This document shows, piece after piece, positions 13,202-50,262 of a stretch of DNA of 63,339 nucleotides; within the stretch, counting starts at the first letter, position 1; each line of letters starts with the position of its first letter. Under the pieces are notes generated by a model. It searched no databases. It was not told where the DNA came from and saw nothing but the letters and a program-made list of their open reading frames with translations. Made by a program: the position numbers and the translations under genes. This stretch comes from Prevotella sp. GTDB lineage: Bacteria; Bacteroidota; Bacteroidia; Bacteroidales; Bacteroidaceae. The stretch spans positions 1 to 63,339 of the forward strand of contig JAFYZT010000052.1 of the NCBI GenBank assembly GCA_017548605.1. Reading direction: 5' to 3'.

Positions 13202-13390
13202 TTCAACCTTCAATGTTCAACTATCCACCTTCAACGTTCAATGTTCCACCTTCAACGTTCAATGTTCCACCTTCAACGTTCAATGTTCCACCTTCAACGT
13301 TCAATGTTCCACCTTCAACGTTCAATGTTCCACCTTCAACGTTCAATGTTCCACCTTCAATGTTCAACGTTTCACGTTCAACGTCTTTCA
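13202..13390 (-). repeat. Heptamer-based tandem repeat after the amidohydrolase stop codon
   Basis: About 27 units of 7 bases, on the plus strand TTCAACG, TTCAATG and TTCCACC in rotation. Six perfect copies of the 21-base triple plus one variant lie at 13225-13371. Read in the sense of the minus-strand gene, units are CGTTGAA, CATTGAA and GGTGGAA, so TGA recurs. The array starts at the amidohydrolase stop codon (13390-13388) and runs to 27 bases before the dehydrogenase start, inside what looks like one operon. It also gives a spurious repeat-only frame on the plus strand. Confidence 0.95.
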
Positions 13391-14314
13391 CTCTGCCATA
13401 TGCTTCACGTAAGGCAGTCGTGGCAATGCTCCAAAGCCATAGAATACCTTTGCATTACCACCAAGCAGCATCAGTATCTCTTCCCACGTCAATTCTTTAC
13501 TCTTCACGATGAAGTCATACGACATACGATAGGTGATGGCGGCGATGGTGCGGGGATAGTCGCTGCCCCACATTATCTTGTCCATGCCCACCAGCTCTGC
13601 TGCTTCACGGATAACACGTATAGCGGTAGGGTACGGGTAAAACTCAGAATTGTATAGCCACGTGATACCGCCAGTCTCTATTCTCACATGCTCATAGCTT
13701 GCCAATTTCACCTGACGTCGCCAAGAGGCATTCTCCCAAGGGGATATAACAGGTGGATTGGCCATGCATAGATGACCGATGGCGACCCGAAGTAGGGGAT
13801 ATTCTTGAATAACTTGTTCCAATTCGTTTACCTGCTGGTCGCTATCGGCAAGGGTGATGGACAATAGTATGTCTTTCTCCTCCATGTAATGGAACATTTT
13901 CATCATCTCTTCGCTCAACAACGAACGACCCAATAATCGATGACCAGGGATGGCGATGCCCTTGAATCCTTTTTCTATCAAAGAACGGGCTTGTTCGAAG
14001 AAGCCTTCTTTCAAGTAGTCCGCCATGCCGCATACGAAGAATCGGTCGGGATAACGTTGGCGTACAGTATCAAGATAGTCGTTCTGGATGCCGTCGATAA
14101 ATTCTTGCACGACTACGGCTCCAGCAACCTGCGCAAAATCCATGTTGCTCAGGAATACTTCAGCGGTGTTTTTCCCGTCAATCATAAACGGTGGAAGCAT
14201 CTGCACTTCCTCACCGAGGAACAGCGAGCGCCCATTCTTTGTAGTGCGGATAACTTGACCATTCCAACTGGTATCTTGACGCAGCCACAAATGACTGTGC
14301 GCGTCAATAATCAT
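13388..14314 (-). CDS. Amidohydrolase family protein (possible sugar-lactone hydrolase)
   Basis: A 308-residue metal-dependent hydrolase of the amidohydrolase-2 type (TIM barrel). The first strand motif is IDAHSHLW; later marks are IAIPGHRLLG, VAIGHLCMANPP and MWGSDYPRT, whose Asp is the usual catalytic residue. Relatives include L-fuconolactonase and 2-pyrone-4,6-dicarboxylate lactonase. Beside an aldo/keto reductase and a GH95 fucosidase, opening of fuconolactone is a reasonable guess. I start at the ATG at 14314, which overlaps the previous stop as ATGA and has GGAAGAA before it; an ATG at 14326 is the alternative. Confidence 0.8.
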   Translation of the reverse strand: MIIDAHSHLWLRQDTSWNGQVIRTTKNGRSLFLGEEVQMLPPFMIDGKNTAEVFLSNMDFAQVAGAVVVQEFIDGIQNDYLDTVRQRYPDRFFVCGMADYLKEGFFEQARSLIEKGFKGIAIPGHRLLGRSLLSEEMMKMFHYMEEKDILLSITLADSDQQVNELEQVIQEYPLLRVAIGHLCMANPPVISPWENASWRRQVKLASYEHVRIETGGITWLYNSEFYPYPTAIRVIREAAELVGMDKIMWGSDYPRTIAAITYRMSYDFIVKSKELTWEEILMLLGGNAKVFYGFGALPRLPYVKHMAE

Positions 14315-15261
14315 GAGTTCTTCCATCGCACAAACATTTGGTCGCCAATAATCGCTTGCACTTCCTTCACTAAGTTTGTATCCATAGGCTCGTTCACGTA
14401 ACCGATGTTTTTCAGTACGTTGGCGGGGTTGGCGCTGCTGAACAGGGTACTTGTGATGCGGAGGTTAAGGCTAGTGGAGAATTGAATAGCTAACTTTTCA
14501 ATGGGATATCCTTCTTTTTGGCAGAAGGCAGCTGCTTTTGCACAAGCGTCCTTCAACGGTTTGGGAGCAGGATGCCAGTCTGGAGTACCACGACTTGACA
14601 ATAGGCCCATTGACAAGGGGGAGGCGTTAATAACTCCTACACCGTGACTCTCAAAGAAATCAAGGTATTCGGTGAGCAATGTGTCGTTTAATGAATAGTG
14701 GCAGAAATTCAGGATACTCTCTACGGTGCCATCATCGCATCGTTCAATGACCCATTTCAGGTTCTCTGGCTGGAGATCGGTAATGCCAACATGACCTACC
14801 ACGCCTTTCTCGCGGAGGGCGACCAGGGCGGGCAACGTCTCATCGACAACCTTTTGCAAACCACCATCCAGACCAGCCTGAAACTCGATGTCGTGGACAT
14901 TGATCAGGTCGATATAATCCAGATGCAGACGTTCCATACTTTCATACACACTGTCGGTAACGCGTTGTGTGGAATAGTCCCATGTGTTTACGCCGTCTTT
15001 CCCATAGCGGCCTACCTTCGTTGATAGGTAATATTTGTTTCGCGGTATTTCTTGTAGTGCTTTACCCAATACCGTTTCGGCTTTCAGATGACCGTAGTAA
15101 GGAGATACATCGATGAAGTTGATGCCGTTGTCCACTGCCGTATGGACGGCACGGATGCCTTCGTCTTCACGAATACCACGGAATACGCCGCCCAATGATG
15201 ATGCTCCGAAACTAAGATTTGATAAGCGCAAGCCTGTCTTCCCTAATTCATTGTAAACCAT
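14311..15261 (-). CDS. Aldo/keto reductase (possible L-fucose dehydrogenase)
   Basis: A 316-residue AKR barrel with the catalytic tetrad D51, Y56, K82 and H123 (FIDVSPYYG, STKVG, NVHDIEF). It begins YNELGKTGLRLSNLSFGASSLGG, close to the D-threo-aldose 1-dehydrogenase/L-fucose dehydrogenase branch, which oxidises free fucose or related aldoses at C1 to lactones with NAD(P). The following amidohydrolase overlaps it by 4 bases (ATGA) and could open the lactone. Upstream lie a small secreted protein and the GH95 gene. Substrate assignment rests on context. Confidence 0.85.
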   Translation of the reverse strand: MVYNELGKTGLRLSNLSFGASSLGGVFRGIREDEGIRAVHTAVDNGINFIDVSPYYGHLKAETVLGKALQEIPRNKYYLSTKVGRYGKDGVNTWDYSTQRVTDSVYESMERLHLDYIDLINVHDIEFQAGLDGGLQKVVDETLPALVALREKGVVGHVGITDLQPENLKWVIERCDDGTVESILNFCHYSLNDTLLTEYLDFFESHGVGVINASPLSMGLLSSRGTPDWHPAPKPLKDACAKAAAFCQKEGYPIEKLAIQFSTSLNLRITSTLFSSANPANVLKNIGYVNEPMDTNLVKEVQAIIGDQMFVRWKNS

Positions 15262-15354
15262 TACTATATTGTTTAGTGTTCAGTGCCTTAATATAATTAT
15301 TCTTTTAAATAATTTTATAATCTTTTAATTTTATAATTATTCAATCTTACCACG

Positions 15355-15786
15355 TTATTGTATCTTCGTCGCCGCAACAACAAACTCATATTCTATCATG
15401 TCTTGTCCCCAGTGGGCTATAAGGCGTTTCTTGCCCTTGGTGATGGTGACAATCTTAGTACCCTTAGCCACGTTAAAACCCATATTGTCATCTTGGGGAC
15501 TGTCATAGTAGATGGTAAGTTTATTACCCTCTACCTCGGCATAGACATTGGCACGTACCATGCACTGCCATCCGTCTATAGACATAGATCCGTAATAGGT
15601 GTCGTCATGGTCAATCTCAAAACTGATGTTATAACAGATGCTTGTGCCTCCGGCGGTCTTGCCGGCGCAATGCGACGCAACATAACTGCCCGCCCATCCC
15701 TTTTTCTGGGCGTTAACTTGGATACTGAATGCGAGAAGGGCCACTATCAGCAAACCCACCTTCTCAATACGTTTGATAGTCTTCAT
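15355..15786 (-). CDS. Small secreted protein of unknown function
   Basis: Not recognised. 143 residues, with a signal peptide (KVGLLIVALLAFSIQVNAQ). The mature part is about 117 residues, rich in beta-strand patterns (YYGSMSIDGWQCMVRANVYAEV, TKIVTITKGKKRLIAHWG) with three cysteines (SHCAGK, SICYN, QCMV). It lies 28 bases after the GH95 gene and 93 before the aldo/keto reductase, on the same strand, so it may be part of the same transcript. An AT-rich stretch with repeated TTTTAATT-like units lies downstream (15290-15345). Confidence 0.7.
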   Translation of the reverse strand: MKTIKRIEKVGLLIVALLAFSIQVNAQKKGWAGSYVASHCAGKTAGGTSICYNISFEIDHDDTYYGSMSIDGWQCMVRANVYAEVEGNKLTIYYDSPQDDNMGFNVAKGTKIVTITKGKKRLIAHWGQDMIEYEFVVAATKIQ

Positions 15787-15814
15787 AATGGTTTATTTAT
15801 GTTGTCAAAAATCT

Positions 15815-18379
15815 CTATCTATTTTTAAGGACAATCTCGTCTCCTTTCTTCGTGTCAATGTCATATTCATACACTTGACGGAATGAGGCTGTGGGCACCT
15901 GCGACAATTCAGGTGAAACCACAGTCTGCTTCACTTCGGCACCGTTCAACAGAGGATTAGGACACCCGCCCTGTGCGGGACGGAGCCCCTTGCCTTCCAA
16001 AGGTAGATAAGAACGAACACGTAACACACCTCCTAAGGTGGACTTTACCTTCACCTCCAGAGATACTGGGCCATCGACAGACCATTCCTCATCCACGATA
16101 AATCCGCCACGAGCTTTCAATCCCGTCACTTTGCCTTTGTGCCATGCCTCGGGAAGGGCAGGCAACAGATGGACGGCACCGTCATGGCTTTGTAACAGCA
16201 TTTCTGCCACACCAGCGGTGAAACCGAAATTGCCGTCAATCTGGAAGGGGGGATGGGCATCAAAAAGATTAGGATAGGTACGGCCCAAAGCCATCTGCCT
16301 CCTGCCGTCTTCCCCGAAATAGTATGACTCTCGTCCTTGCGATGGCAACAGATGGAGCATATTCGAGATGATACGGTAGGCATGGTTGCCATCAAGCATG
16401 CGTGCCCAGAAATTGATTTTCCAACCAAGGCTCCATCCTGTGGCCATGTCGCCTCGCTGTGCTAAGGTGGTAGCAGCGGCGGCAAATAATTCTGGGTGGC
16501 TGAAAGGGGAAATCTGGTTCGAGGGATAAAGACCGTACAGATGGGAGATATGACGGTGCTCATCTTTCGGATCGTCGCCGTCGATGAGCCATTCCTGTAA
16601 CTGTCCGTGACGGCCAATCATCATGGGTGGTAATTGGGCGATGGTTTGGCGAAGACGCTCTTGGTATTCTGATGATTCTCCTAAGACGCGGGCGGCAGAC
16701 AACGTGTTGCTCAAAGCGTCGAACACGATTTGGTTATCCATCGTGCATCCAGCGGTTACGGCAGTTCGCTTGCCCATGGGACCGTGTTCGGGCGATACAG
16801 ATGGCACGGCGACCAACCAGCCATATTGCGGATGAGGCTGTAAGTAGTCGAGATAGAAGTCTGCAGTGCCTTTGATGACAGGATACCACGTCCGTAAAAA
16901 TTCCTTGTCACCACTGAACAGGTAATGTTGCCACAGATGGGTGGCCAACCATGCACCACCATTGGGGAACATACCCCATTGGGCACCGTCGATGGGCCCT
17001 GCAATACGCCAAAGGTCAGTGTTGTGATGGGCTACCCAGCCGCCACAGTGGTACATCTGCTGGGCGGTCTTAGCTCCCGTCTCACTCAAATCCTTAATCA
17101 TCGAAAACAAGGGCTCCTGGGTTTCGCAAATATTACAAACCTCTGAGGGCCAATAGTTCATTTCGGCATTGATATTGATGGTATATTTCGAGTCCCACGG
17201 GGCATTCAACTGGTCGTTCCACAGTCCTTGCAGATTGGCAGGTTGGGTGCCAGGTTGTGAACTGGTAATCAGCAGGTAACGGCCATACTGGAACATCAAG
17301 GCGACGAAACTGTTGTCCTGCTTCTCTGAGAAATGTAACAGACGCTGGTCGGTGGGGGCATTTTGGCTCTCGTCAGCATAACCCAGTTCCAGACTCACTC
17401 GGCGATATTGCTCTTGGTATTTGGCCAGATGACGGTCTAATAGCGTGCGATAGGGTACCCCTTCTATTGCTGCAAGAGTGCGCGTGTTTTTGGCACTGGC
17501 ATCGCCGCTGATATCATGGTAGTTTACATAGTTTGTGGCGGCTGTGATGTATAGCGTCACTTCGGAGGCGTTGTTAACCGTTATACCCTCAGTTCCTTCC
17601 GATAATGTACCATTGGTAACTATTTTTACCCTGCATTCGGCACCCAGACCGGCTTTTATTCCTTCATGGTCGGCTCCATCGACATGGGCGATGAGCACGC
17701 CCTTTTCTATGCGCTGATGAACGGGCAATTGACTGCGGAAACCAGCAGTGATAGATATGTCCTTGCCTTTGTCGGTAGCATATCGGACGACAATCACGTC
17801 GTCGGCCATAGAAGAGAAGACGGTTTCTGTGCAGGTGGAGGCCCTGCGCTTTTTTGGATTGGGCAATACTTTGAAACTGGCTGAAGCCACAGCACGGTCC
17901 AGTTCCAAACGACGGCCTAAATAGGTGCTGTCGCCGGAAGACGCGAAACGAAGATACAATTCACCCAGAGGAAGGAAACGCATACCATGTGGACCCTTGA
18001 TGAAATACTGGTCTATCAACCGACTGGCCTCTTCTTCATGACCATCAAAAATCAACTGACGCACCTCGTCAAGATGGGCATACGACTCCGTAGAGTTGTT
18101 GTCATGGGGAGAACCGCTCCAAAAGGTGTCTTCATTCAATTGGATAATTTCTTCATTGTTTCGACCATAAACCATGGCTCCTAAATGGCCATTGCCCACA
18201 GGAAGGGCCTCCAGCCAATTGGCAGCAGGCTGGTCATAAAATAATTGGTAATCCTGTGCAGATATATGTTGGATTCCATGAAAAAAAAGGAAAAGCACAG
18301 ACACGAAAACAATAGCTGAATGAAAATGGCTCTTGTTCTTGAAGGAGGAATTAAAAAGTCTTTCTTTCACGTCTTTCAT
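15815..18379 (-). CDS. GH95 alpha-L-fucosidase (or alpha-L-galactosidase)
   Basis: An 854-residue exported glycoside hydrolase. A signal segment ([15 protein letters not shown], cut near HISAQ) precedes the beta-sandwich domain with [14 protein letters not shown] and [11 protein letters not shown], typical for GH95. The (alpha/alpha)6 barrel follows; N402 and N404 in [14 protein letters not shown] match the two asparagines that activate water in the Bifidobacterium enzyme AfcA, and [14 protein letters not shown] is the later conserved segment. The enzyme removes alpha-1,2-linked L-fucose (some members L-galactose) from plant xyloglucan or glycans by inversion. I start at the ATG at 18379. It leads the series that ends with the Memo and radical SAM genes. 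Confidence 0.93.
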
Positions 18380-18420
18380 AAACCTTTTGTTGTTTAGGGT
18401 TCTGATGTGCAAAAATAAAC

Positions 18421-18457
18421 AAAAAATCGCTAACTCGGTAAGAGTTGGCGATTTTTT
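18421..18457 (-). terminator. Terminator of the two-domain esterase gene
   Basis: Arms of 16 bases (AAAAAATCGC-TAACTC / GAGTT-GGCGATTTTTT) with one G-T pair and a 5-base loop; on the minus strand it ends in a T-run. The -7-like TATTTTTG (18417-18410) for the GH95 gene follows directly. Confidence 0.8.
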
Positions 18458-18475
18458 GTTGAATAAAAATACTGT

Positions 18476-19924
18476 TCACTTCGCTTTTATGGCCTCTGAA
18501 ATAATCTTAGCCATCAGACCTACTCCCTTGTCGTTGGGATGGATACCGTCATCCTGCAACAGTGTCTCTGGGTTAGTGAAGAGCGAGTGGAGGTCAATCA
18601 GCTGCAAACCATATTCTTGTGCTACTTCTTTCTGGATGGGGATAATATCATTGGTGATGATAGCGTCGTTGATGGCCCATGAAGACTTTAAGGCGGGTGG
18701 GGGAGTGCAGAGGAAGATGCGGGGCTTTGCCGATGGTTTCATCTTCACTGCCTTTTTGCCTTTTTTCTGGCTGGGGAAAGACAACTCGGGACGCAGTTGG
18801 CTAATCATCTGTACCAAGTCGTTCTTGAACTCGGACGAATACTGCCAGTTCTGAGGCTTCGAGTCATTAGTGCCCAGACCGATAATCACGATGTCTGGGT
18901 CAAATGCCAAAGCATCACGCCAAGCTTGCTCGTTCATATAAGGCAGGTCGCCCTTATTTAGCATAGTACGGCCGCTGACACCGAAATTCCTTACCCAATA
19001 GTCTTTACCAAGCGCTTTCTGTAACTGCGCGGGATAGCCATGCTGTGTGGCCATGTCTATGCCATGACCATCAGTGATGCTGTTGCCGATACATGCCACA
19101 CGGAGAGCGTCAGCAGCAGGAGTCTTGCGGGCATCAAGCCAATTGCCAATGTCGGTGAGCAACTGTTGGTGATAGGGGAACCAGGGACCGAACCCGAAGC
19201 CGTGGTCACCGGATGGGTAGATATACATGGCACACTCGTTTCCGGCATTGCGCATGGCAGAATAGTATGCCACACCATTGGTCACAGGGGGAACCAAACG
19301 GTCGTCGTTGGCCATGACAATAAGTGCAGGAGGTGTCAAGTGACGTTTCACAGCATTTTGAGTCGAGAAATCATTAACCAACGCTGGGTCTTTCTGGCCT
19401 TCCTCGCCAAGGAAATTGATACATGAGTATTTATGCGACACACGCTCGTCCATTGAAATCACAGGATAGAACAGTATCGTGAAGTCGGGACGTACCTCAT
19501 AGGCGGAATGAGTGGAGATGACCGATGCCAGATGACCACCTGCTGAAAAGCCCATGATACCGATGTCACGAGGATGGATATTCCACACACTGGCCGAGTC
19601 GCGAACAATGCGGAAAGCTTTCTCCACATCACTGATAGGCCGTGTCCTGTCACCATTGGGCAATCGGTAGTTTACCACAAAATAGGAGATGCCGCGCTGG
19701 TTCAACCATCCGTGGGCCATGGTACCCTCATGGTTGTTCGACAATACGGAGTAACCGCCGCCGGGAATACCAACAATAGCTTTCCCCGTGGGATTCTCAG
19801 CTAAATAACAAACCATTTGGGCCTGACCGTCGTCGGTCAGGTCCAAAGTAAACGTTCTAGCAGTCTGCGCAAGTGCTGATAAACACAACACCAACACGCA
19901 GCTCGTCAAAAAGAATCGTTTCAT
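18476..19924 (-). CDS. Two-domain secreted esterase: alpha/beta hydrolase plus SGNH hydrolase
   Basis: A 482-residue protein with signal peptide (VLCLSALAQ). Residues about 25-265 are an alpha/beta hydrolase with GIPGGGY, nucleophile S127 (GFSAGG), acid near D207/D208 and H241 (DHGFG), all intact. Residues about 274-482 are an SGNH/GDSL hydrolase with S282 (IGNSITDG), G320-region (NFGVSGR), N353 (GTND) and the D459-x-x-H462 pair (DDGIHPND). Both types remove acetyl or other acyl groups from polysaccharides, so one polypeptide may strip two kinds of ester from acetylated xylan or pectin. A terminator follows. Confidence 0.88.
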   Translation of the reverse strand: MKRFFLTSCVLVLCLSALAQTARTFTLDLTDDGQAQMVCYLAENPTGKAIVGIPGGGYSVLSNNHEGTMAHGWLNQRGISYFVVNYRLPNGDRTRPISDVEKAFRIVRDSASVWNIHPRDIGIMGFSAGGHLASVISTHSAYEVRPDFTILFYPVISMDERVSHKYSCINFLGEEGQKDPALVNDFSTQNAVKRHLTPPALIVMANDDRLVPPVTNGVAYYSAMRNAGNECAMYIYPSGDHGFGFGPWFPYHQQLLTDIGNWLDARKTPAADALRVACIGNSITDGHGIDMATQHGYPAQLQKALGKDYWVRNFGVSGRTMLNKGDLPYMNEQAWRDALAFDPDIVIIGLGTNDSKPQNWQYSSEFKNDLVQMISQLRPELSFPSQKKGKKAVKMKPSAKPRIFLCTPPPALKSSWAINDAIITNDIIPIQKEVAQEYGLQLIDLHSLFTNPETLLQDDGIHPNDKGVGLMAKIISEAIKAK

Positions 19925-19999
19925 TATATAGACAAAACGAATTGAAATGATAATAGTCTCGCCATACTCAAGCTTTTGTTGATAAAACGAGCATTTGGC

Positions 20000-20039
20000 T
20001 TAACTACTTAACTCCTTAACTTCTTAACTCCTTTAATTA
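20000..20039 (-). repeat. Octamer tandem repeat at the stop codon of the 20037 gene
   Basis: Four units TTAACTAC, TTAACTCC, TTAACTTC, TTAACTCC at 20000-20031, then TTTAATTA (20032-20039), whose last three bases are the stop codon of the minus-strand gene. In the sense direction units read GGAGTTAA/GAAGTTAA, each with TAA. Confidence 0.85.
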
Positions 20040-23936: not shown

Positions 23937-23983
23937 TTCTTTCTATACCGTTTACTTCTTACAATAATACAATATACCACTAT

Positions 23984-24071
23984 TTTTACCCTTTTACCTT
24001 TTTACCCTTTTACCTTTTTACCTTTTTACCCTTTTACCCTTTTACCTTTTTACCTTTTTACCTTTTTACCC
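23984..24071 (-). repeat. Octamer tandem repeat TTTTACC(C/T), 11 units
   Basis: The A of each unit falls at 23988, 23996 and every 8 bases up to 24068, so the period is exactly 8 over 88 bases. The stop codon of the DUF4380-like gene (24052-24050) lies inside the array, and the last seven residues of that protein are coded by it. In the sense direction units read GGGTAAAA/AGGTAAAA, each with TAA. Confidence 0.95.
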
Positions 24072-24958
24072 TTTATTACTTTTTTCACGGTCTTTACTAA
24101 TGCTTTAGAAGGAATGCATTCTCCGTTATATGGTATCAGGCTCCAACGCACTGTCCAATGCAACTGTCCGCCTGGCTCCAACGTTGTGTAGGCTCCCTGA
24201 CTTTCTAATTCAATATATGTCTTTCGCATGTTCACATAGACCTGTATCTCGGCCTCTCCCGGAGCAGGTTGTGTGGGCGTGAGGTCTTCGAACTGCTTCA
24301 CCATTAATAGTCCGTTGCTGCAATAGGCCAGCCAACCCTTGCCATCGGCATTGATCTTACGATTCTGAGGAGCCTCGTCGGAACGGTACCAAACGGCACC
24401 ATCCTTGGCTTCAAATGACAAAAGGCCTGCAGGAGTGATACCGTCTAAAGGAGCATCGAAGAAGATGAGACCGCCATCATTAGCCACACGGGTGATTTCC
24501 CATGGGGCGACCTGGCGGGTCTCGTCCGACTCATTGATGATGGTGTAAGTGACGAGAATGGCGTTGTTTGTTGCATCCACGGTAAATTCTTTGCGAATGC
24601 GATACTTCATCCGCTCCGATACTTGACTGGTCATCAACAGATGGCTGTCACTGCACTCATCAACAGTGTAGGGGTTTTTGTCGTACTCAGGCACTGGGGG
24701 CCAGTTCCACTCCTTCTGTGGACTGGTCCAGAAAGTACTGCCGAACGCTTCGCGCCGAGGTGACTGAGAGATAATCTCTTGATCCTTATACTTATAGGAG
24801 AGTATCTTTCCGCCTTGGTTGGCATCAATAGTCATCGATACATCGCCCATGTTTAATACATGCTTGCCATCGCTCTCTCCCGGGGAGGTAGATGTGACTT
24901 GGGCCGACAGCGTGAAAACACTGGCAGTCATCAGAAGGAAAACAATAATTTTTTTCAT
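24050..24958 (-). CDS. Secreted DUF4380-like protein
   Basis: A 302-residue protein with signal peptide (FLLMTASVFTLSAQ). The body looks like a galactose-mutarotase-type beta sandwich: GGKILSYKYKDQEIIS, FGSTFWTSPQKEWNWPP, RKEFTVDATNNAILVTYTIINES, and the DUF4380-type PWEITRV. Function unknown; a carbohydrate-related role is likely from the fold. Its C-terminal residues KGKKVKR and its stop codon are read from the octamer repeat at 23984-24071. A -7 box TATTTTTG lies at 25009-25002. Confidence 0.75.
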   Translation of the reverse strand: MKKIIVFLLMTASVFTLSAQVTSTSPGESDGKHVLNMGDVSMTIDANQGGKILSYKYKDQEIISQSPRREAFGSTFWTSPQKEWNWPPVPEYDKNPYTVDECSDSHLLMTSQVSERMKYRIRKEFTVDATNNAILVTYTIINESDETRQVAPWEITRVANDGGLIFFDAPLDGITPAGLLSFEAKDGAVWYRSDEAPQNRKINADGKGWLAYCSNGLLMVKQFEDLTPTQPAPGEAEIQVYVNMRKTYIELESQGAYTTLEPGGQLHWTVRWSLIPYNGECIPSKALVKTVKKVIKGKKVKR

Positions 24959-29520: not shown

Positions 29521-29588
29521 GAGGAAGTTTATTCGGTATTGTCCACTTTAACTTCCATTTTAACTTCCTCTTTTAACTCCCAATTCTA
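29521..29588 (-). repeat. GGRAGTTAA-type repeats between convergent genes, at the FHA stop codon
   Basis: In the sense of the minus-strand gene: GGGAGTAG (the stop codon, TAG), then GGGAGTTAA, GGAAGTTAA, GGAAGTTAA, spaced 12-13 bases. GAGGAAGTT (29521-29529) and AACTTCCTC (29562-29570) also form a 9-base inverted pair that could act as a weak hairpin for the HU gene. Confidence 0.7.
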
Positions 29589-30107
29589 CTCCCAGGAAGT
29601 TTTCAATATCACACTCGTGGCTCCTATCGTGAAGAGGGAGCCATCTTCCAATGTACGGCGCTCACCATCTGCTAGTATGTCGTTGTCGACGAATGTGCCA
29701 GTGTTGCTCGGACCGTCCATCAACGTATAACGTATCCTTCCTTTCTTGTCACGCGACACCTGTATCTTGCAGTGCAGCAAGTCCATACTGGGGTCGTTGG
29801 TCTCTATTGGCGACGTAATATTAGAGCCTTTCATGTAACGGCCGATGGTGTTCATGCCCATGTGCAAAGGTATCACCTGCTTATAATGGAACACGTTCTC
29901 TATCACCAACAAAGAACCCACACCATCGTTGCTTTCAGCTTCAGGATCTTCTTCACGCTGCACATTGCGAAGTGGGTTCACACCCATACGAATGCCGAAC
30001 TGCTTATTGCAGTTCGGACAAACAAAGACCAAAGATTGTCCTTTGGCGTATTTCGTTTCGTCAAAGGTAATGAAAGATTCACATTTTGGACATCTGACTC
30101 TTTTCAT
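29586..30107 (-). CDS. Zinc-ribbon plus FHA domain protein
   Basis: A 173-residue protein. The N-terminus has a zinc-ribbon: CPKC at residues 6-9 and CPNC at about 30-33. From about residue 65 to the end is an FHA domain with NTIGRYMKGS, DPSMDLLHCKIQV and SNTGTFVDN, the loop residues that bind phosphothreonine peptides. FHA proteins read Ser/Thr kinase signals. Its ATG overlaps the stop of the HU-SPOR gene (ATGA), so the two are made together. No kinase lies in the window. Confidence 0.85.
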   Translation of the reverse strand: MKRVRCPKCESFITFDETKYAKGQSLVFVCPNCNKQFGIRMGVNPLRNVQREEDPEAESNDGVGSLLVIENVFHYKQVIPLHMGMNTIGRYMKGSNITSPIETNDPSMDLLHCKIQVSRDKKGRIRYTLMDGPSNTGTFVDNDILADGERRTLEDGSLFTIGATSVILKTSWE

Positions 30108-36458: not shown

Positions 36459-38132
36459 ATGAAGATGAAATACCTATTTTTTGCTATCTCCATGATGCTG
36501 GCACCTTTGGCCGTACATGCAGATGGTTTTGAAAGTGCTACCGACGCAGTAAAGAACATGGGCGTAGGATGGAACTTGGGCAACACACTCGACAGCTGGA
36601 CTACAAATACCTATTCTTCTTGGGAAGACCAAGAAAAATGTTGGGGACAGCCAATAACTACTCCCGAACTAATCACCATGATGAAAAATGCCGGATTCAA
36701 TGCCATCCGTGTGCCTGTTACTTGGTTCAAATGGATGGACGGCAACGGCATGGTGGCAGAACAATGGATGAACCGCGTTCATGAGGTGGTCGACTATGTT
36801 ATCAACAATGGCATGTACTGCATCCTCAATGTTCACCATGACACGGGAAGTGGCGACCAGGCATGGCTCATTGCCGATGAAACAGTGTACCAGAACACGA
36901 AACAGCGCTACGAAACCCTCTGGCACCAAATTGCCGAGGAATTCAAGGATTACGACCATCACCTGCTCTTCGAAGGATATAATGAGATGCTCGACATCAA
37001 GAAGTCATGGTGTTTTGCCTCTTACGCTGCCGCCGGTCAGTATGACGCTGCTATCGCTCAGTCGGCTTATAACGCCATCAACAGCTATGCACAGAGTTTT
37101 GTCAATGCGGTCCGTGCTACGGGAGGCAACAATACATATCGCAACCTCATCATCAACACCTATGCTGCAGCTAATGGTGCGGGTAACTGGAATTCACATC
37201 TCACCGAACCGCTCTCAAAGTTGAACATGCCCACGGATGTTATGAGTGGACATATCGCTTTCGAGGTACATGCCTACCCGAACATTCAGAACCTCAGCAA
37301 TGCTAAATCGGAGGTGAACGACATCGTGAATAAAGTGAAAACATATCTTGTATCCAAGGGTGGACCCGTCATCCTCGGTGAGTGGGGTACCAGCAATGTC
37401 GATGCAGGGGAAGGTAAGACCGACTATGATATCCGTAGGACCACGATGCTCAATTTTTGCGATTACTTAGTCAAGACGATGAAGGCAAACAATATTGCCA
37501 CGTTCTATTGGATGGGGCTATCCGACGGTTGGGCTCGCTCTATTCCTGCATTTAATCAGCCCGACTTGGCGGAGACAATTACAAAGGCATATCATGGCGA
37601 GGACTTCCAAGGCGTATATCCAGATGTAAATGATGTACAGTTCGACTATGAAGTGGTGTATAACGGCGACTGGCAGGAATTGAACCTTTACAGTGGCAGC
37701 GTTATCAGGTTGGCTGATTATACAGGCATCAAGGTTGTCATGGCCGACGATACGGCGATTGACAAACTACAAGTGAAAATATATAGTTCCCCTGAAGGTT
37801 ATAAACCGCTTACGGGAATAGAGACTCTCGTTGAATTCGATTCTTCCATGGGAACCACTACACAACGCATCACCCTGCAGACCATTGTGGGTGCATGTAC
37901 AGCCACCTTGCGTGAGGCTAAGCTTATCAAGAAAGATGGAACAGAGGTTGAACTGACTCCTACTGTGTTCTGGGGTTGCTCTGTCAATCCTGTGCCAAGG
38001 ACAACAGGCATCAACACTCCTTTCATCACCGAAGCTGAAGACGGTGCTATCTACAATCTCGCCGGACAACGCGTACAAACGCTTTCCAAAGGTATCTACA
38101 TCAAGAATGGCAAAAAGTTTGTGGTGAGATAG
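36459..38132 (+). CDS. GH5 endoglucanase with C-terminal sorting-type tail
   Basis: A 557-residue exported enzyme (signal ending PLAVHA). The GH5 barrel spans about 25-385: NMGVGWNLGNTLDSW, the RVPVTW strand, LNVHHDTG, acid/base E176 in FEGYNEM and nucleophile E308 in ILGEWG, all intact. About 390-515 is a beta-sandwich of unknown binding role. The last 30 residues (YNLAGQRVQ, GIYIKNGKKFVVR) match the tail common in Prevotella secreted enzymes and likely used in type IX-like sorting. It cuts beta-1,4-glucan, perhaps xyloglucan or mannan as subfamily is not fixed. Tandem repeats start at its stop codon. Confidence 0.92.
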   Translation: MKMKYLFFAISMMLAPLAVHADGFESATDAVKNMGVGWNLGNTLDSWTTNTYSSWEDQEKCWGQPITTPELITMMKNAGFNAIRVPVTWFKWMDGNGMVAEQWMNRVHEVVDYVINNGMYCILNVHHDTGSGDQAWLIADETVYQNTKQRYETLWHQIAEEFKDYDHHLLFEGYNEMLDIKKSWCFASYAAAGQYDAAIAQSAYNAINSYAQSFVNAVRATGGNNTYRNLIINTYAAANGAGNWNSHLTEPLSKLNMPTDVMSGHIAFEVHAYPNIQNLSNAKSEVNDIVNKVKTYLVSKGGPVILGEWGTSNVDAGEGKTDYDIRRTTMLNFCDYLVKTMKANNIATFYWMGLSDGWARSIPAFNQPDLAETITKAYHGEDFQGVYPDVNDVQFDYEVVYNGDWQELNLYSGSVIRLADYTGIKVVMADDTAIDKLQVKIYSSPEGYKPLTGIETLVEFDSSMGTTTQRITLQTIVGACTATLREAKLIKKDGTEVELTPTVFWGCSVNPVPRTTGINTPFITEAEDGAIYNLAGQRVQTLSKGIYIKNGKKFVVR

Positions 38133-38159
38133 TAATGAGGGGTGAGGGGTGAGAGAATA
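38132..38159 (+). repeat. Heptamer repeats after the GH5 stop codon
   Basis: GTAATGA, GGGGTGA, GGGGTGA, GAGAATA: period 7 with TGA in three units, directly behind the TAG stop (38130-38132). Complementary to the array at 38243-38270. Confidence 0.8.
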
Positions 38160-38217: not shown

Positions 38218-38249
38218 TGTTATATAAGTTTATTACTCGGACTATTCTC

Positions 38250-38284
38250 TCACCTCTTACCCCTCACTACTCACCCCTCACTTA
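38250..38284 (-). repeat. Heptamer repeats at the stop codon of the sodium-pump beta gene
   Basis: TCACCTC, TTACCCC, TCACTAC, TCACCCC, TCACTTA: five units of 7; the last contains the stop codon (TAA, 38284-38282). In the sense direction: GGGGTGA-type units. Confidence 0.85.
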
Positions 38285-39439
38285 CGAGAAGAATCCCAAA
38301 AGCACACCGGCGGCAACAGCCGAACCGATAACACCAGCCACATTGGGACCCATAGCGTGCATCAAGAGGAAGTTGTGGCGGTCGTATTCCAAACCGATAT
38401 TGTTGGAGATTCGTGCACTCATGGGCACGGCGCTTACACCAGCATTACCGATAAGCGGATTGATTTTCTTTCCCTTAGGCAGGAATAGGTTCATCACCTT
38501 GACAAACAAGATACCACTGGTACTGGCGATGATAAAGGCCATGGCTCCCAGGAAGAAAATCTTGATGGTGTTCAAGGTCAGGAACTCACTGGCTTGGGTG
38601 GAGCAGCCTACGGTGAGGCCCAACAGCATAACGACGATGTCGTTCAGTGCCGAACCAGCAGTCTTAGCCAGACGGGTTGTCTTGCCACTCTCCTTCAATA
38701 GGTTACCGAAGAACAGCATGCCCAACAATGGTAAGCCGGAAGGCACAAGGAAGGTTGTAAGCAGCAGACCAATAATCGGGAAGAGGATGCGTTCTGTTTG
38801 GCTCACATTGCGAACCGGCGGCATGTGAATAACACGCTCTTTCTTGGTGGTCAACAGACGCATGAGGGGCGGCTGGATAACAGGTACCAAGGCCATGTAC
38901 GAATAGGCGCATACGGCAATGGCACCCATCAGGTTCGGGCTTAGTTTGGATGACAGGAATATGGCTGTAGGACCGTCGGCGCCACCGATAATGGCGATAC
39001 CAGCGGCCTGGTTGGGCTCGAAGCCCAAGGCAAGAGCCACCATATAGGCGCCAAAGACACCAAACTGTGCGGATGCACCAATCAAAATCAGTTTCGGGTT
39101 ACTGATAAGGGCTGAGAAGTCGGTCATGGCACCTATGCCCAAGAATACCAGGGGTGGATACCATCCTTGACGTACTCCTTGGTAGAAGATATTCAATACC
39201 GAATTGTCCTCATACAGACCTATTTCCAAACCGGCATCAGCCTTAAATGGAATGTTACCCAGGATAATGCCTAAACCGATAGGTACGAGCAACAAAGGCT
39301 CAAAATCCTTGCGGATGGCCAACCAAATGAATATCGCACCCACCACAATCATGATGAGATTGGGCACGGTGGCATTGGCGAATCCTGTGAACGACAAGAA
39401 TTCGTTAAAGTTATTGATGATGAAATCTGTAAATCCCAT
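38282..39439 (-). CDS. Sodium-translocating decarboxylase beta subunit
   Basis: A 385-residue membrane protein of the OadB/MmdB/GcdB family, with about ten spans. The family motif GGADGPTAIFLSSKL holds the Asp that binds sodium; GNAGVSAVPMSARI near the C-terminus is also typical. This subunit couples decarboxylation of carboxybiotin to export of sodium. With mutA/mutB next door, methylmalonyl-CoA decarboxylase is the likely complex, but no carboxyltransferase alpha subunit is in the window. It follows the biotin carrier gene by 9 bases. Confidence 0.92.
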   Translation of the reverse strand: MGFTDFIINNFNEFLSFTGFANATVPNLIMIVVGAIFIWLAIRKDFEPLLLVPIGLGIILGNIPFKADAGLEIGLYEDNSVLNIFYQGVRQGWYPPLVFLGIGAMTDFSALISNPKLILIGASAQFGVFGAYMVALALGFEPNQAAGIAIIGGADGPTAIFLSSKLSPNLMGAIAVCAYSYMALVPVIQPPLMRLLTTKKERVIHMPPVRNVSQTERILFPIIGLLLTTFLVPSGLPLLGMLFFGNLLKESGKTTRLAKTAGSALNDIVVMLLGLTVGCSTQASEFLTLNTIKIFFLGAMAFIIASTSGILFVKVMNLFLPKGKKINPLIGNAGVSAVPMSARISNNIGLEYDRHNFLLMHAMGPNVAGVIGSAVAAGVLLGFFS

Positions 39440-39448
39440 TGCCTGTAA

Positions 39449-42588: not shown

Positions 42589-42606
42589 AATATGAAAAAA
42601 TCGGTG

Positions 42607-42747
42607 CAAAATTACTTAAATAATTGCGCATTTTACATATTTTTGAGCAATTTTTTTCTGAAATATAGTAAGATTTGTTTTTTTTCACGTTACCAATTCT
42701 TTTTCTCCGCTTTTATTTCGATAATTTGGAAAAATTCAATATCTTTG
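42607..42747. promoter_or_regulatory. Divergent -7 boxes for the transporter and mutA
   Basis: Minus strand TAATTTTG (42614-42607) for the transporter. Plus strand TATCTTTG (42740-42747) for mutA, with TTTC at 42716-42719, 20 bases upstream, as near-match. No B12 riboswitch-like box was seen in this 225-base gap. Confidence 0.6.
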
Positions 42748-42813
42748 CATGTCAATTTAATCCGAACTGTCATTTTTTGAAAAAGGATTTTTTATAACTT
42801 ATTTTAATACACT

Positions 42814-44670: not shown

Positions 44671-44689
44671 TGATGTTAGATTTACAGTC

Positions 44690-46855
44690 ATGAGAAAGAA
44701 TTTCAATAACATAGATATTTATGCAGGCATCAAGCCTGTCAATGGAACAGAATGGCTTAAGTCTAATAACATTGAGCCTAACTGGAAGACACCTGAACAT
44801 ATCAATGTCAGGCCGGTATACACCAAGGAAGACCTGGAAGGCATGGAACACTTGGACTTCGCTGCCGGTATTCCTCCGTTCCTCCGTGGTCCGTATTCCA
44901 TGATGTATCCTTTCCGTCCCTGGACCATCCGACAGTATGCTGGATTCTCCACCGCTGAGGAGTCCAATGCTTTCTATCGCCGTAACTTGGCTTCAGGACA
45001 GAAGGGTCTCTCCGTGGCCTTCGACCTTCCCACACACCGTGGCTACGACCCCGACAATGCACGTGTGGTGGGCGATGTCGGTAAGGCTGGTGTGTCTATC
45101 TGCTCGTTGGAGAACATGAAGGTGTTGTTTGCTGGTATTCCCTTGAACAAGATGTCAGTGTCAATGACCATGAATGGAGCTGTGCTACCCATCCTGGCTT
45201 TCTATATCAATGCCGGATTGGAGCAGGGTGCCAAACTGGAAGAGATGGCTGGTACCATCCAGAACGATATCCTCAAGGAGTTCATGGTGCGTAACACCTA
45301 CATCTATCCGCCGGCATTCTCCATGAAGATTATTGCTGATATCTTCGAGTACACCTCGCAGTTCATGCCGAAGTTCAACTCTATCTCTATCTCCGGCTAT
45401 CACATGCAGGAAGCAGGTGCCACTGCTGATATCGAATTGGCTTATACCTTGGCCGACGGTATGGATTATCTGCGCACAGGTGTGAATGCGGGTATTCCTG
45501 TCGACAAGTTTGCACCTCGTCTGTCCTTCTTCTGGGCCATCGGTATGAATCACTTCATGGAGATTGCCAAGATGAGGGCTGGTCGTCTGCTCTGGGCTAA
45601 GATCGTGAAGAGTTTCGGAGCCAAAGATCCGAAGTCAATGGCTTTGCGTACACATAGCCAGACTTCTGGTTGGTCCCTCACCGAGCAAGACCCGTTTAAT
45701 AATGTGGGTCGTACGTGTATCGAGGCTATGGCAGCTGTCTTGGGTCACACCCAGTCGCTTCACACCAACGCTCTCGACGAGGCCATCGCCTTGCCTACGG
45801 ACTTCTCCGCGCGTATCGCTCGTAACACACAGATTTACATTCAGAACGAGACCAAGGTGTGCAAGCAGATTGACCCGTGGGCTGGTTCCTATTATGTGGA
45901 GACGCTGACCAATGAGTTGGTTCACAAGGCTTGGGAGCATATCCAGGAAATCGAGAAACTCGGCGGTATGGCCAAGGCTATTGAGACTGGTCTGCCCAAG
46001 ATGCGTATCGAAGAAGCTGCCGCACGCACTCAGGCTCGTATTGACTCAGGTGTTCAGACCATCGTTGGTACGAACAAGTATCGTCTGGAGCATGAGGATC
46101 CCATCGATATCCTCGAAGTGGACAATACTGCAGTGCGCAAACAGCAGGAAGAGAGCTTGGCAGAGGTTCGCGGCAAACGCGACGAAGCGGCATGCAAGGC
46201 TGCTCTTGCCGAGATTACCCAATGTGTTAAGGAGTTCAACGAAGGAAAGAAGTCCCAAAACAACTTGCTCGCTCTCGCCGTCAAGGCTGCCGGTTTGCGC
46301 TGTACCTTGGGTGAGATTAGTGATGCCTGCGAGGAAATCGTGGGCCGTTATAAAGCAGTAATCAGAACCATTTCAGGCGTGTATTCATCAGAAAGCAAAA
46401 ACGACTCGGATTTCGAGAAAGCATGTGAACTCACTGAAGAGTTTGCTAAGAAAGAAGGTAGAAGGCCGCGTATATTCGTGGCTAAGATGGGACAGGACGG
46501 TCACGACCGTGGTGCCAAGGTGGTGGCTACGGGCTATGCCGACTGTGGTTTCGACGTAGATATGGGACCTTTGTTCCAGACTCCGGCGGAAGCAGCTCGC
46601 GAGGCTGTGGAGAACGACGTGCATATCGTTGGTGCCTCTTCACTGGCTGCAGGTCATAAGACCTTGATTCCTCAATTGATAGAAGAATTGAAGAAGCTTG
46701 GTCGTGAAGACATCATGGTTATCGCCGGCGGTGTTATCCCCGCCCAGGACTACGACTACCTCTACAAGGCAGGCGTGGCTGCAATCTTCGGCCCCGGCAC
46801 CTCGGTTGCCAAGGCTGCCTGCGAGATGATGAACATCCTGCTCGACAAAGAGTAA
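44690..46855 (+). CDS. mutB: Methylmalonyl-CoA mutase large (alpha) subunit
   Basis: A 721-residue adenosylcobalamin enzyme. The TIM-barrel part begins near [18 protein letters not shown] and has [28 protein letters not shown] (substrate tunnel) and [18 protein letters not shown]-like [11 protein letters not shown]. The C-terminal B12 domain has the cobalt-ligand motif in [13 protein letters not shown], then [19 protein letters not shown] and GGVIPAQDY. It converts succinyl-CoA to methylmalonyl-CoA in propionate formation, feeding a decarboxylase of the kind coded just upstream on the other strand. A strong terminator follows. Confidence 0.97.
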
Positions 46856-46871
46856 TCAGGTTATTCCCAAC

Positions 46872-46902
46872 AAAAACGGGGCGGAAAATCCGCCCCGTTT
46901 TT
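46872..46902. terminator. Bidirectional terminator between mutB and mgtC
   Basis: Perfect 14-base arms AAAAACGGGGCGGA / TCCGCCCCGTTTTT with a 3-base loop; A-run and T-run on both sides fit use in both directions. Confidence 0.93.
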
Positions 46903-46909
46903 AATTTCC

Positions 46910-46944
46910 TCACTTCTCACCTCTCACTTCTCACTTCTCACCCC
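46910..46944 (-). repeat. Heptamer repeats after the mgtC stop codon
   Basis: TCACTTC, TCACCTC, TCACTTC, TCACTTC, TCACCCC: five units of 7, ending 2 bases from the mgtC stop codon. In the sense direction GAAGTGA/GGGGTGA, each with TGA. Confidence 0.88.
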
Positions 46945-46946
46945 TT

Positions 46947-47612
46947 TTATATCAATTCTAATACTTGGATGGCTTCGTCTGATTCAAGCATGTCGTATAG
47001 ATGCTTGTCAAACTGACGGCGTTTCATGTTTAGTTCCAACGATACAACATATCGCCGCTCACCTCCAATCATACTTTCTTCCTGCTTAAAGGTTTCAATC
47101 ACAGCATCCCATTCCTTGAAATGGTTGAGCATATCCTGCACATCATTCAGACTACCTGCGGAAATCTTGAGATAAACGTTCTTATTACCAATTCTACGCA
47201 TGATGATATGCATGGCTTCCAGACAAAGAAGCACCAAAACCGTACATACTATGGAGAGAGTATATAATCCCGCTCCGGTAGCCATACCAATGGCAGAGGT
47301 CACCCATAGGCCTGCAGCGGTGGTCAATCCTCTGACGATATGTTTGGTGAAGATGATGGTACCTGCTCCTATGAAACCGATGCCGGAAACCACTTGTGCG
47401 GCTATACGTGCGGGGTCGAGACGCACATTTAATCCAGATGTCAATATGCCCTCAAAGCCGTATTGTGAGATGAGCATGAACAAGGCGCTGCCCAGGGCTA
47501 CGAGGAAATGGGTGCGGAATCCGGCCTCTTTGGCACGGTATTCACGCTCCAGTCCTATCAATCCGCCTAAGAGTGCGGCAACCAATATTCGTATGATAAG
47601 TTGTTCTGTCAT
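46947..47612 (-). CDS. MgtC/SapB family membrane protein
   Basis: A 221-residue protein. The first 130 residues hold four to five membrane spans with the MgtC signature (AALLGGLIGLEREYRAKEAGFRTHFLVALGSALFMLIS; QVVSGIGFIGAGTII; RGLTTAAGLWVTSAIGMATGAG). The rest is a cytoplasmic ACT-like domain (VYLKISAGSLNDVQDMLNHF). MgtC-type proteins affect membrane potential, magnesium stress and polyphosphate/phosphate balance; the transport role is debated. It starts 5 bases after the clpC stop, so it is co-transcribed. Confidence 0.9.
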   Translation of the reverse strand: MTEQLIIRILVAALLGGLIGLEREYRAKEAGFRTHFLVALGSALFMLISQYGFEGILTSGLNVRLDPARIAAQVVSGIGFIGAGTIIFTKHIVRGLTTAAGLWVTSAIGMATGAGLYTLSIVCTVLVLLCLEAMHIIMRRIGNKNVYLKISAGSLNDVQDMLNHFKEWDAVIETFKQEESMIGGERRYVVSLELNMKRRQFDKHLYDMLESDEAIQVLELI

Positions 47613-47617
47613 AGATG

Positions 47618-50167
47618 CTATTCTTTATTAAAAGTCAGCTGCTCACTGCCTTCAGCCACGTCCACCTTGACATCACCTTGTAATGGGTTGTCCTCAAGCA
47701 ACATCTCACAAACCTTGTCTTCCACGTGATTTTGAAGAGCACGCTTCAAAGGACGGGCACCGAACTGAACGTCGTAGCCTTTCTTAGCCAGGAATTCCTT
47801 GGCGGCATCTGTCAGGTGTAAGGTAACACCCAAATCCTCCATGCGTTTCTGCAAACCAATCAGTTCGATATCAACAATGCGCTTGATAGCATCCATGTCT
47901 AATTGGTCGAACATGATGATTTCATCAAGACGGTTGAGGAATTCTGGGGCAAACTGTCTGCTCAGGCTCTTTTGGATGATGGAACGGGCACGCTCACGGT
48001 CATTGTCGTTCATGTCGAGACCGAAACTGCTTGCGTTAAATCCCACGCCGCGGCCGAACTCCTTCAGTTGGCGTGTTCCAGCATTTGAGGTCATGATGAT
48101 GATGGTGTTGCGGAAATCTACCAATCGGCCATTGCCGTCGGTAAGACGTCCTTCGTCCAACACCTGCAACAAGAGATTGAACACATTACCATGTGCCTTC
48201 TCTATCTCATCAAGCAGGACGATAGAGTAGGGGTGACGACGCACTTTTTCCGTCAGCTGGCCACCTTCATCGTAGCCCACATATCCGGGAGGCGAACCCA
48301 CGAGTCTCGACACATTGAACGCTTCTGTATATTCGCTCATGTCAACACGTATCAGGTCATCGGCACTGCCGAACATATACTCTGCTAACTGCTTGGCCAG
48401 ATAAGTCTTACCCACGCCCGTAGGACCCAGGAACATGAACACGCCGATAGGGCGGTTCGGGTCTTTTAGTCCTATGCGGTTGCGTTGGATGGCTTTCACC
48501 ATCTTATCGATGGCAGCATCCTGAGCTACCACCTTCTCCTTAAGTACCGATGCCATTTTGCGCAGACGGGAACCTTCCGACTCCTCCAAGCGTTGCAGGG
48601 GAACGCCGGTCATCACCGATACCACATCGGCCACATCGGCTTCCGTCACCATCTCGCGATCGCCCTTGCTGCCATTCGACCACTCTTCGTTGAGCTTTTT
48701 CAACTGGCCTTCCAATTTGCTTTGGCGGTCACGGTAACTGGCAGCCAATTCGAAGTTCTGGTTTTTTACCGCTTCGGTCTTTTTCTTCTTCACCTCTACG
48801 ATTTCCTTTTCCATCTCACCGATTTCCGGTGGCATGTGAACATTCTTCAGGTGAACTTTGGCACCAGACTCATCAAGGGCATCGATAGCTTTGTCGGGGA
48901 AAGACCGGTCGGTAACATAGCGCTCTGTCAATTTGACACATGCACGAATAGCCTCGTCCGAATAGGTCACATGGTGGTGATCTTCGTACCTGCCCTTGAT
49001 ATTTTGAAGAATCTGTAAGGTTTCATCTGTGGTGGTGGGTTCGACAAGCACTTTCTGGAAACGTCGCTCCAATGCACCATCTTTTTCTATGCTCTTGCGG
49101 TACTCGTCGAGCGTGGTGGCACCAATACATTGTATCGTTCCCCTGGCGAGTGCCGGTTTGAGGATATTGGCGGCATCCATCGAGCCAGGAGCTGAACCAG
49201 CTCCGATAATGGTGTGTATCTCGTCCATGAACACGATGATTTCCGGGTGCTGCTCCATCTCATTGAGGATGGCCTTGATACGTTCCTCAAACTGTCCACG
49301 GTATTTGGTGCCGGCCACGACAGATGCCATGTCCAGACTGACCACCCGTTTGTTAAAGAGTAGTGGCGATGTCTTGTGTTGAACGATCATCTGGGCCAGT
49401 CCCTCTACGATGGCACTTTTACCCACACCGGGTTCGCCGATGAGCACGGGGTTGTTTTTCTTCCTGCGGCAAAGGATTTCTGTTACGCGGAGCATCTCTT
49501 CCTCACGTCCCACCACAGGGTCAAGGGCATGTTCCCGAGCCGCCTTGGTCAGGTCATGTGAGAAATTGTCGAGCACGGGCGTACCGCCTGAAGATGCCGG
49601 ACTTTGAACCTGCACATTGCTGCCGCGTGTATTGCCACCATTGTCGCTGTCCATATATTCGTCTTCTTCCGGCTCGTCAACACCCAGGCTGTCCAATGTA
49701 GAGGAAGAAGACTCTCCTGCCGGACTATGCGCTTGTTGGAAATAGCGAGCGGCTTTGTCGTAAGTGACGGACGATTGCTCTAACGAATCCTTGGCTCCGT
49801 TGGGCATCTGGTCATGCAGAATGGCCAGAAGAATATGTTTCACTTCCACGTCCATACTGTGTTGTAGGGTGGCTTCGAGAATAGCACGGCGCATCACATT
49901 ATTGGCATCTTCATTCATTACCAACTCACGTGCATTTGTGGGAATGGTGTTCTCATCCCTCTTTACACGTTGTTCCAAATCATGCTTGAGCGAGGGTAGG
50001 TCTACATTCATCTCTTGGAAAAAACCGTTGACATCGGTTTCTCCACCACGAAGAATGGCTATCAGCAAATGTTCTGGAGCCACACTCGTACTATATAAAC
50101 GGGATGCTTCTTCACGGCTATACGCAAACAATTCCGTTACTTCCCGCGAAAATTTTACACTGTTCAT
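47618..50167 (-). CDS. clpC: ClpC-type AAA+ unfoldase of the Clp protease
   Basis: An 849-residue ATP-dependent unfoldase that feeds proteins to ClpP. Order: Clp N repeats (1-145; [23 protein letters not shown]), an acidic linker (150-195), AAA+ 1 with K250 in GEPGVGKS, a UVR-type coiled middle ([17 protein letters not shown]), AAA+ 2 with K587 in GPTGVGKT and [14 protein letters not shown], and the D2-small domain. The UVR-like middle domain marks ClpC over ClpA. I start at the ATG at 50167; an upstream open stretch lacks an ATG and crosses the repeat. It sits between ispE and mgtC on one strand. Confidence 0.93.
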
Positions 50168-50234
50168 TCGTTTCCTTTTCAATAATACTACATCATTCAA
50201 GCAAATATCGTGCCAAACGAATAGTCCTTTATCT

Positions 50235-50262
50235 GTGGTCACCCGTCATTCTTCATTCGTCA
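50235..50262 (-). repeat. Heptamer repeats starting with the ispE stop codon
   Basis: In the sense direction: TGACGAA, TGAAGAA, TGACGGG, TGACCAC, each exactly 7 bases, the first TGA being the ispE stop codon (50262-50260). Short, but it fits the pattern of other arrays here. Confidence 0.7.

Follow-up and report, generated by a model that had tools for sequence, protein, structure and literature searches.

Short tandem repeats that keep to the edges of bacterial genes were discussed by Rehm et al., who described quadruplex-forming G-rich heptamers, GGGAATC and GGGGA(C/T)T, in Xanthomonas and Nostoc (Rehm et al., 2015; PMC4692102). In that account, the sense strand lies within 50 nucleotides (nt) of stop codons, overlaps included, whereas in the 50 nt before starts it is the non-coding strand; arrays of four units are preferred, Xanthomonas has no preference for the leading or lagging strand, and no function was found. 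TAACTGA direct repeats, mostly intergenic, were described in Beggiatoaceae, Cyanobacteria and five Bacteroidetes, and two close Cyanothece strains were found to differ mostly by insertions and deletions in 7-nt steps (MacGregor, 2015; PMC4679880, in the portion available). As cited in the accessible text of both articles, Mrazek et al. (2007) studied long simple sequence repeats (SSRs) of 5–11 nt, among which heptamers are the commonest in most genomes, and proposed polymerase slippage. The DNA considered here is a stretch of 63,339 nt from Prevotella sp. (GenBank assembly GCA_017548605.1, contig JAFYZT010000052.1, positions 1 to 63,339 of the forward strand), called the window below and numbered C51 among the 55 contigs of the 3.25-Mb genome of a rumen Prevotella-like bacterium, in which short tandem arrays of 7- or 8-nt units lie at the stop codons of several unrelated genes.

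An initial annotation of the window had read these arrays as stop regions repeatedly duplicated by slippage, as a guard against readthrough and frameshift, or as an RNA or protein signal. What, then, are they? Our best explanation, to which we would give an even chance, is that they belong to a population of short tandem-repeat cassettes that is spread over the genome and turns over fast, with their orientation sorted by selection at the edges of open reading frames (ORFs), and that they are not a stop-codon device. Several things were observed directly: the arrays exceed chance, one family has a shared 3′ tail, some arrays occupy protein loops that orthologues lack, replication strand, stop edge and start edge each determine orientation, statistically independently of one another, and conserved orthologous stops bear different unit families in different species.

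The likeness to the Xanthomonas and Nostoc heptamers, as the available part of that article presents them, extends to the 7-nt units, the many intergenic arrays, the stop and start edge rule and the convergent inverted pairs; the statement in the initial annotation that no description was known is thus superseded, the same strand-and-edge rule being in print for those G-rich heptamers (PMC4692102). Contrary to these repeats, which are of one G-rich quadruplex motif type, the Prevotella arrays form several families with units of 7 and 8 nt that for the most part lack a G3 quadruplex motif, and only here, to judge from the same excerpts, does one find replication-strand polarity (174:53 and 26/27, detailed below) and one family's shared tail. 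In the accessible text on the TAACTGA repeats, those of the main species lie mostly just upstream of starts, in one orientation, whereas here the sequence is another and the excess is at stops. The long SSRs are alike in their heptamer class, but an edge, orientation or tail rule is not part of the accounts given of them in the available portions of the two articles. In the open-licence literature, queries on Prevotella, on Bacteroidetes and on repeats next to stops gave no title or abstract describing these arrays.

Genes were called with a codon-usage script, independently of any annotation, in 1.263 Mb of DNA including the window (39% of the genome; 1.20 Mb outside the window), and arrays were detected with Tandem Repeats Finder (TRF) at a score of at least 40, looser sets being taken at 36 and 30 or above. 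The intergenic sample of 659 gap segments (169 kb) yielded 313 arrays at the main cut-off, against 11, 12, 16, 17 and 17 in five dinucleotide shuffles; the period is a multiple of 7 in 87 of the 313 and a multiple of 8 in 95 (182 together). When array ends are permitted to overlap genes, there are 337 intergenic and 107 coding arrays. Pattern classification places 186 of the 337 in named groups, made up of seven unit families of 7–8 nt, a hairpin family (10 arrays) and CCTAGGA repeats (10 arrays), and leaves 151 unclassified. The unclassified arrays are left out of the counts by family at stops, because unoriented ones among them had been scored as antisense. The seven families follow, each with its number of arrays among the 337 and its sense and antisense counts (orientation of the purine strand relative to the gene) at stops of this genome:

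RRGTAAAA: 52 arrays; 31 sense, 1 antisense
RATTAAAA: 26 arrays; 10 sense, 1 antisense
GRRGTGA: 21 arrays; 3 sense, 1 antisense
GRRGTTAA: 21 arrays; 3 sense, 0 antisense
GRRGCAA: 20 arrays; 13 sense, 1 antisense
GAGTGAY: 16 arrays; 6 sense, 2 antisense
TTGAACR: 10 arrays; 8 sense, 0 antisense

A three-unit GRRGTGA pattern has 89 matches in the whole genome, and the reversed pattern has none. Since only 21 of 201 genomes of the family carry any such match, this one counted, the GRRGTGA family is lineage-specific. Heptamer arrays of the form AGTGRRG occur on both strands within several contigs of the genomes G122, G143 and G021, often as two overlapping matches (about four units) in the first two; they are possibly a different dispersed element.

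Placement near stops exceeds chance. Within the first 463 kb, 39 of the 87 arrays with a 3′ neighbour lie at most 10 nt from a stop, against 24.8 under uniform placement (maximum of 2000 draws, 36). The larger sample holds 28 arrays that overlap a stop or start 0–3 nt past it (18.2 under uniform placement), followed by a deficit at 4–15 nt (28 against 45.4). The stop-proximal excess described in the initial annotation is therefore real, yet the arrays are not confined to stops, the 337 intergenic arrays giving 118 contacts with a stop within 15 nt.

Orientation, too, follows the gene edges. Of the arrays whose nearest gene edge is a stop no more than 60 nt away, 102 have their purine strand in sense and 22 in antisense; for a start at such a distance, the counts are 15 and 39. 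Beyond 60 nt they are 10:15 and 23:21 for stop and start edges (all at a score of at least 40). Arrays that touch a start are sense in 12 cases, antisense in 16 and unoriented in 28. The stop-edge bias is found again in the sister genome G201 (34:11) and in a third genome, G202 (15:3), and stop-touching arrays in relatives (78 loci, each over 5 kb) are sense in 21 cases, antisense in 5 and unoriented in 20. In a logistic model (n=216), the effects of replication strand, stop edge and start edge are independent, with coefficients of 1.30, 1.98 and 1.25 whose lower bootstrap bounds are 0.95, 1.42 and 0.71.

The replication effect was measured by GC skew at fourfold sites. Purine-strand orientation splits 174:53 with respect to replication, array strand and the replication component of the skew giving a table of 96/24/55/23 (p=2e-12). 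Strand bias runs along whole contigs, with plus to minus counts of 59:9 on C36, 5:32 on C32 and 0:6 on C51, and on the seven contigs with at least two GRRGTGA sites, 26 of 27 sites match the contig majority (shuffled mean 18.8). The sister genome has 13 of 13 sites matching and a replication split of 77:12; in G203, 4 of 4 match, which is uninformative. Because fourfold-site GC skew is negative on the purine strand, and because genes for ribosomal protein L14 and EF-type GTPases lie opposite the GRRGTGA strand on C33, C32, C39 and C36, we infer that the purine strand is the lagging strand. With this labelling, among stops followed by a gap of at least 40 nt, a sense array is present at 50 of 293 stops of lagging genes and at 19 of 291 stops of leading genes.

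The arrays turn over quickly between relatives. Among 102 reciprocal orthologues shared with the sister, 81 stops are array-free in both species and 21 have an array in at least one; only 5 of the 102 pairs have arrays in both with at least one in sense (all at a score of at least 40). In 17 of the 21 array-bearing pairs at least one array is purine-sense, and 11 of the 17 have proteins that align to the last residue of both. TRF finds the array in one species only in 12 of the 17, the protein end being the same in 8 of these 12; in some such pairs weaker repeats are visible by eye in the partner, and at C32_21, C32_33 and C32_63 one species clearly has an array where the other, with the same stop, has none. 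The stop of the oxaloacetate decarboxylase beta gene (oadB), which in the window is 99% identical to that of the nearest named relative, uncultured Prevotellaceae RUG812, has arrays detectable by eye in 3 of 21 relatives: one degenerate GRRGTGA, one GAATGAA and one GAATTGA.

One group of arrays also ends in a defined manner. GRRGYRA arrays of at least three units are followed by GAGAWWWS in 33 of 58 cases here and in 21 of 28 in the sister; for lone units the respective figures are 2 of 1627 and 3 of 541. Four neighbouring array pairs in plus-minus order and one in minus-plus order had raised the idea that the arrays are the two arms of a palindromic element, which was rejected: palindromes at GRRGYRA array ends (score of at least 7) are no commoner than on the 5′ side, with 3 of 58 against 3 of 58 here and 2 against 2 in the sister. 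A terminal mini-hairpin with covariation between unit and tail was likewise dropped, none being evident in 63 arrays. Rickettsia palindromic elements are short dispersed repeats, palindromic, that are inserted in frame into proteins; the ends of the GRRGYRA arrays, in contrast, are not palindromic.

Arrays of the intergenic type occur inside ORFs as well, there in their stop-free orientation:

L126, 15415–15444: in a GH94 gene
L148, 3296–3331: in a ComEC gene
L147, 6373–6404: in a GMP synthase (GuaA) gene
L169, 1292–1317: in a pullulanase-like gene

The GH94 array lies between two Pfam domains and is absent in G201, G164 and G203, G202 having an unrelated insertion at that place. In GuaA, a TTCAACA array fills a loop just before a conserved segment; this loop is short in G201, G202, G164, G005 and G033, and holds a different heptamer, GTCAATT, in G203. 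The ComEC array is in an inter-domain linker in which the sister has other repeats and which is short in G203 and G005. Family arrays of at least three units in ORF interiors are antisense to sense in ratios of 5:2 here, 1:1 in the sister and 4:1 in G202.

Two other repeat structures were seen in the same genome. ACCCACCC..CCCTCCCAAAGGGAGGG hairpins form a second dispersed repeat, in tandem with periods of about 27–43 (for example L127:16374-16443, L128:283-394 and L130:15107-15219), which is also one-way, 7:0 at stops and 10:0 with respect to replication. A composite element has inverted GRRGTTAA arms with GCGAAGCGAA modules that flank an RRGTAAAA array (for example L159:6256-6400 and L147:9323-9460), its borders being GGACAATAGC and ATGTCC.

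In the window itself, the arrays at stops named in the initial annotation are the following:

13199–13384, minus strand: TTGAACR-type heptamer array, period 7/14/21, 8.9 copies of 21, 3 nt past the stop of an amidohydrolase gene (13388–14326, minus; PF04909); TRF
19999–20033, minus strand: GRRGTTAA octamer array, period 8/16, 3 nt past the stop of a minus-strand gene ending at 20037 (no Pfam match at E 0.001); TRF
23983–24085, minus strand: RRGTAAAA octamer array, period 8, 12.6 copies, covering the final 36 nt of a DUF4380 gene (24050–24958, minus; PF14315); TRF
29542–29582, minus strand: GRRGTTAA-type array, period about 12, 3 nt past the stop of an FHA-domain gene (29586–30107, minus; PF00498); TRF
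38136–38153, plus strand: GRRGTGA array, period 7, 2.6 copies, then the tail GAGAATACC, 3 nt past the stop of a GH5 gene (36459–38132, plus; PF00150); TRF
38242–38281, minus strand: degenerate GRRGTGA array ending in GAGAATAG, adjoining the stop of a sodium-pump decarboxylase beta gene (38282–39439, minus; PF03977); seen by eye, absent from the TRF list at a score of at least 30
46909–46941, minus strand: GRRGTGA array, period 7, 4.7 copies, 5 nt past the stop of an MgtC-family gene (46947–47612, minus; PF02308); TRF
50244–50262, minus strand: weak array of 2.7 heptamer copies (TRF score 31) that overlaps a GHMP-kinase gene at its stop (50260–51096, minus; PF00288/PF08544), named ispE in the initial annotation

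All eight overlap a stop or lie within 5 nt of one, and are purine-rich in the sense of their gene, as first described. As repeats, six of the eight are recovered by TRF at a score of at least 36, the ispE array is marginal (31), and the one first placed at 38250–38284 is visible by eye only. Between 38132 and 38282, two GRRGTGA arrays face each other across a terminator-like hairpin that separates convergent genes, and could form a long stem in either transcript. An Rfam scan of the window gave no match at the gathering threshold, and positions 46801–46980 had no match in a plasmid collection.

A rival reading is that of a fail-safe guard, kept because stops in all frames would catch readthrough and frameshifted ribosomes. 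Three-frame closure within 30 nt is indeed found at 55% of the 69 stops with sense arrays against 7% of 606 array-free stops, as the initial annotation had claimed, and for arrays 0–8 nt past the stop at 52% of 27 against 25% after column permutation. Its claim of stop triplets in every unit turns out to reflect mostly composition (9.8 per 100 nt, and 8.6 once array columns are permuted), and the consensus unit GRRGCAA has no stop triplet on either strand. As this stop-free family obeys the rule at 13:1, the guard fails as a general cause; the mirrored orientation upstream of starts, the replication-strand effect and a TGA usage of 0.38 at array stops against 0.31 at array-free ones also speak against it, as does a published survey in which selection for additional 3′ stops was not found in eubacteria (Ho and Hurst, 2019; PMC6764699). 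Such a guard is unlikely, and we take stop content to be what makes the sense orientation tolerable at the end of an ORF, not the cause of the arrays. A signal in RNA or DNA at gene edges, either G-quadruplexes, as proposed for the Xanthomonas and Nostoc repeats, or antisense C-rich arrays at which Rho would load and so shield genes from transcription coming in across either edge, would agree with the observation that transcripts entering an ORF from outside mostly read the pyrimidine-rich strand, and a like geometry is published for other heptamers, so far as the excerpts show (PMC4692102). We nevertheless find it doubtful. As a sequence motif, a four-run G3 quadruplex occurs in just 10 of the 216 oriented arrays (a G2 motif in 55 of them), and the unit RATTAAAA, without any GG, obeys the rule at 10:1; convergent stops (22:2 sense to antisense) and co-directional stops (56:8) are biased alike, which a Rho model does not need; and presence is not conserved, with 81 of 102 orthologous stops array-free in both species and 5 occupied in both with at least one array in sense.

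Local tandem duplication of the stop region by slippage, separately for each gene, would leave the stop in register with the repeat. Among the 46 sense arrays testable for register, this is so for 22 of the 29 that overlap a stop (4.2 expected), which mostly follows from how that set is defined, the stop being part of the array, and for 0 of the 17 past the stop (2.2 expected), a figure that tends to be too low, since the repeat finder would count a stop in register as part of the array. Since, in addition, a small set of families and a common tail are met with at many sites, and some orthologues have the same end without an array, duplication of this kind, as put forward in the initial annotation, has very little probability. 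An artefact of ORF calling, in which stop-bearing sense arrays end any ORF that runs into them, accounts for part of the sense excess of overlapping arrays, an insertion simulation giving 3:1 for these; the observed ratio is 44:3, and it is 35:8 for non-overlapping arrays 0–15 nt past the stop, where the simulation gives 1:1, and the protein end is common to both species in 11 of 17 pairs. As a full explanation it is largely excluded and highly improbable. Mobilisation by a transposase of the REP/RAYT type, with elements entering the single-stranded lagging template, would agree with the defined 3′ tail, the replication-strand bias and the arrays inside ORFs. There is, however, no match to the Y1 transposase family (PF01797) in this genome, which is 92% complete, in a search that gives matches in 5 of 14 control genomes, and palindromes at the ends of GRRGYRA arrays do not exceed the control (3 against 3); we hold this route to be improbable.

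In the explanation that we prefer, that of turning-over cassettes sorted at ORF edges, the cassettes would be copied or expanded at the DNA level with a strand bias, through slippage or template switching, and the purine strand would probably be on the lagging strand; selection would then sort orientation. The purine strand, which usually holds stops, would be tolerated at the 3′ edges of ORFs because it closes the frame harmlessly; within ORFs it is the pyrimidine strand, which is mostly free of stops, that would be tolerated. As leaders are G-poor (12–14% G at positions −20 to −1 of 303 array-free starts), selection would act against the G-rich strand immediately before starts.

Several results weigh against this explanation. 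The selection filter does not account for the sense bias of GRRGCAA, for which an ORF filter predicts no bias such as the 13:1 observed, nor for that of arrays wholly past the stop, which damage no ORF and yet are 35:8 in sense. The start-edge rule falls to 38:55 when arrays of score 30 or more are admitted; the corresponding counts are 7:11 for the sister and 7:6 for G202. This third genome also has a weak replication bias (21:15), a contig majority of 8 of 9 sites (p 0.26) and a weak GAGAWWWS tail (3 of 8). As for the lagging-strand label, intergenic GC skew with arrays masked is opposite in sign to the fourfold replication component in 12 of 17 segments, perhaps owing to decayed arrays; the fit of contigs C1, C13 and C39 is poor, the PF00006 match on C36 is on the array strand, and calibration of leading and lagging strands on the single-contig relative G005 is too noisy in 20-kb stretches. 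An enzyme that would copy the cassettes was not found, one family, the Y1 transposases, having been searched. Lastly, the 3′ flanks of 221 array-free stops have no purine bias (47–54% purine over the next 90 nt), and the notion that a purine-rich 3′ flank is a general need was rejected on these figures.

It is possible, although we put it forward only tentatively, that the arrays represent a new class of polar cassette, a tandem heptamer with a fixed 3′ tail that would spread by single-strand, replication-linked copying without a dedicated transposase, landing by preference in sense directly behind stops and stop-free in protein loops, and repeatedly re-colonising the same gene ends with new units in each Prevotella lineage. 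Because the edge rule holds without a quadruplex motif and for the stop-free GRRGCAA, it is uncoupled from quadruplex and stop causes, and this points to a more general process acting on bacterial heptamer repeats. The origin of the arrays can be tested through their replication-strand polarity and the shared tail, and the arrays inside enzymes such as GuaA illustrate a route from intergenic repeat to protein sequence.

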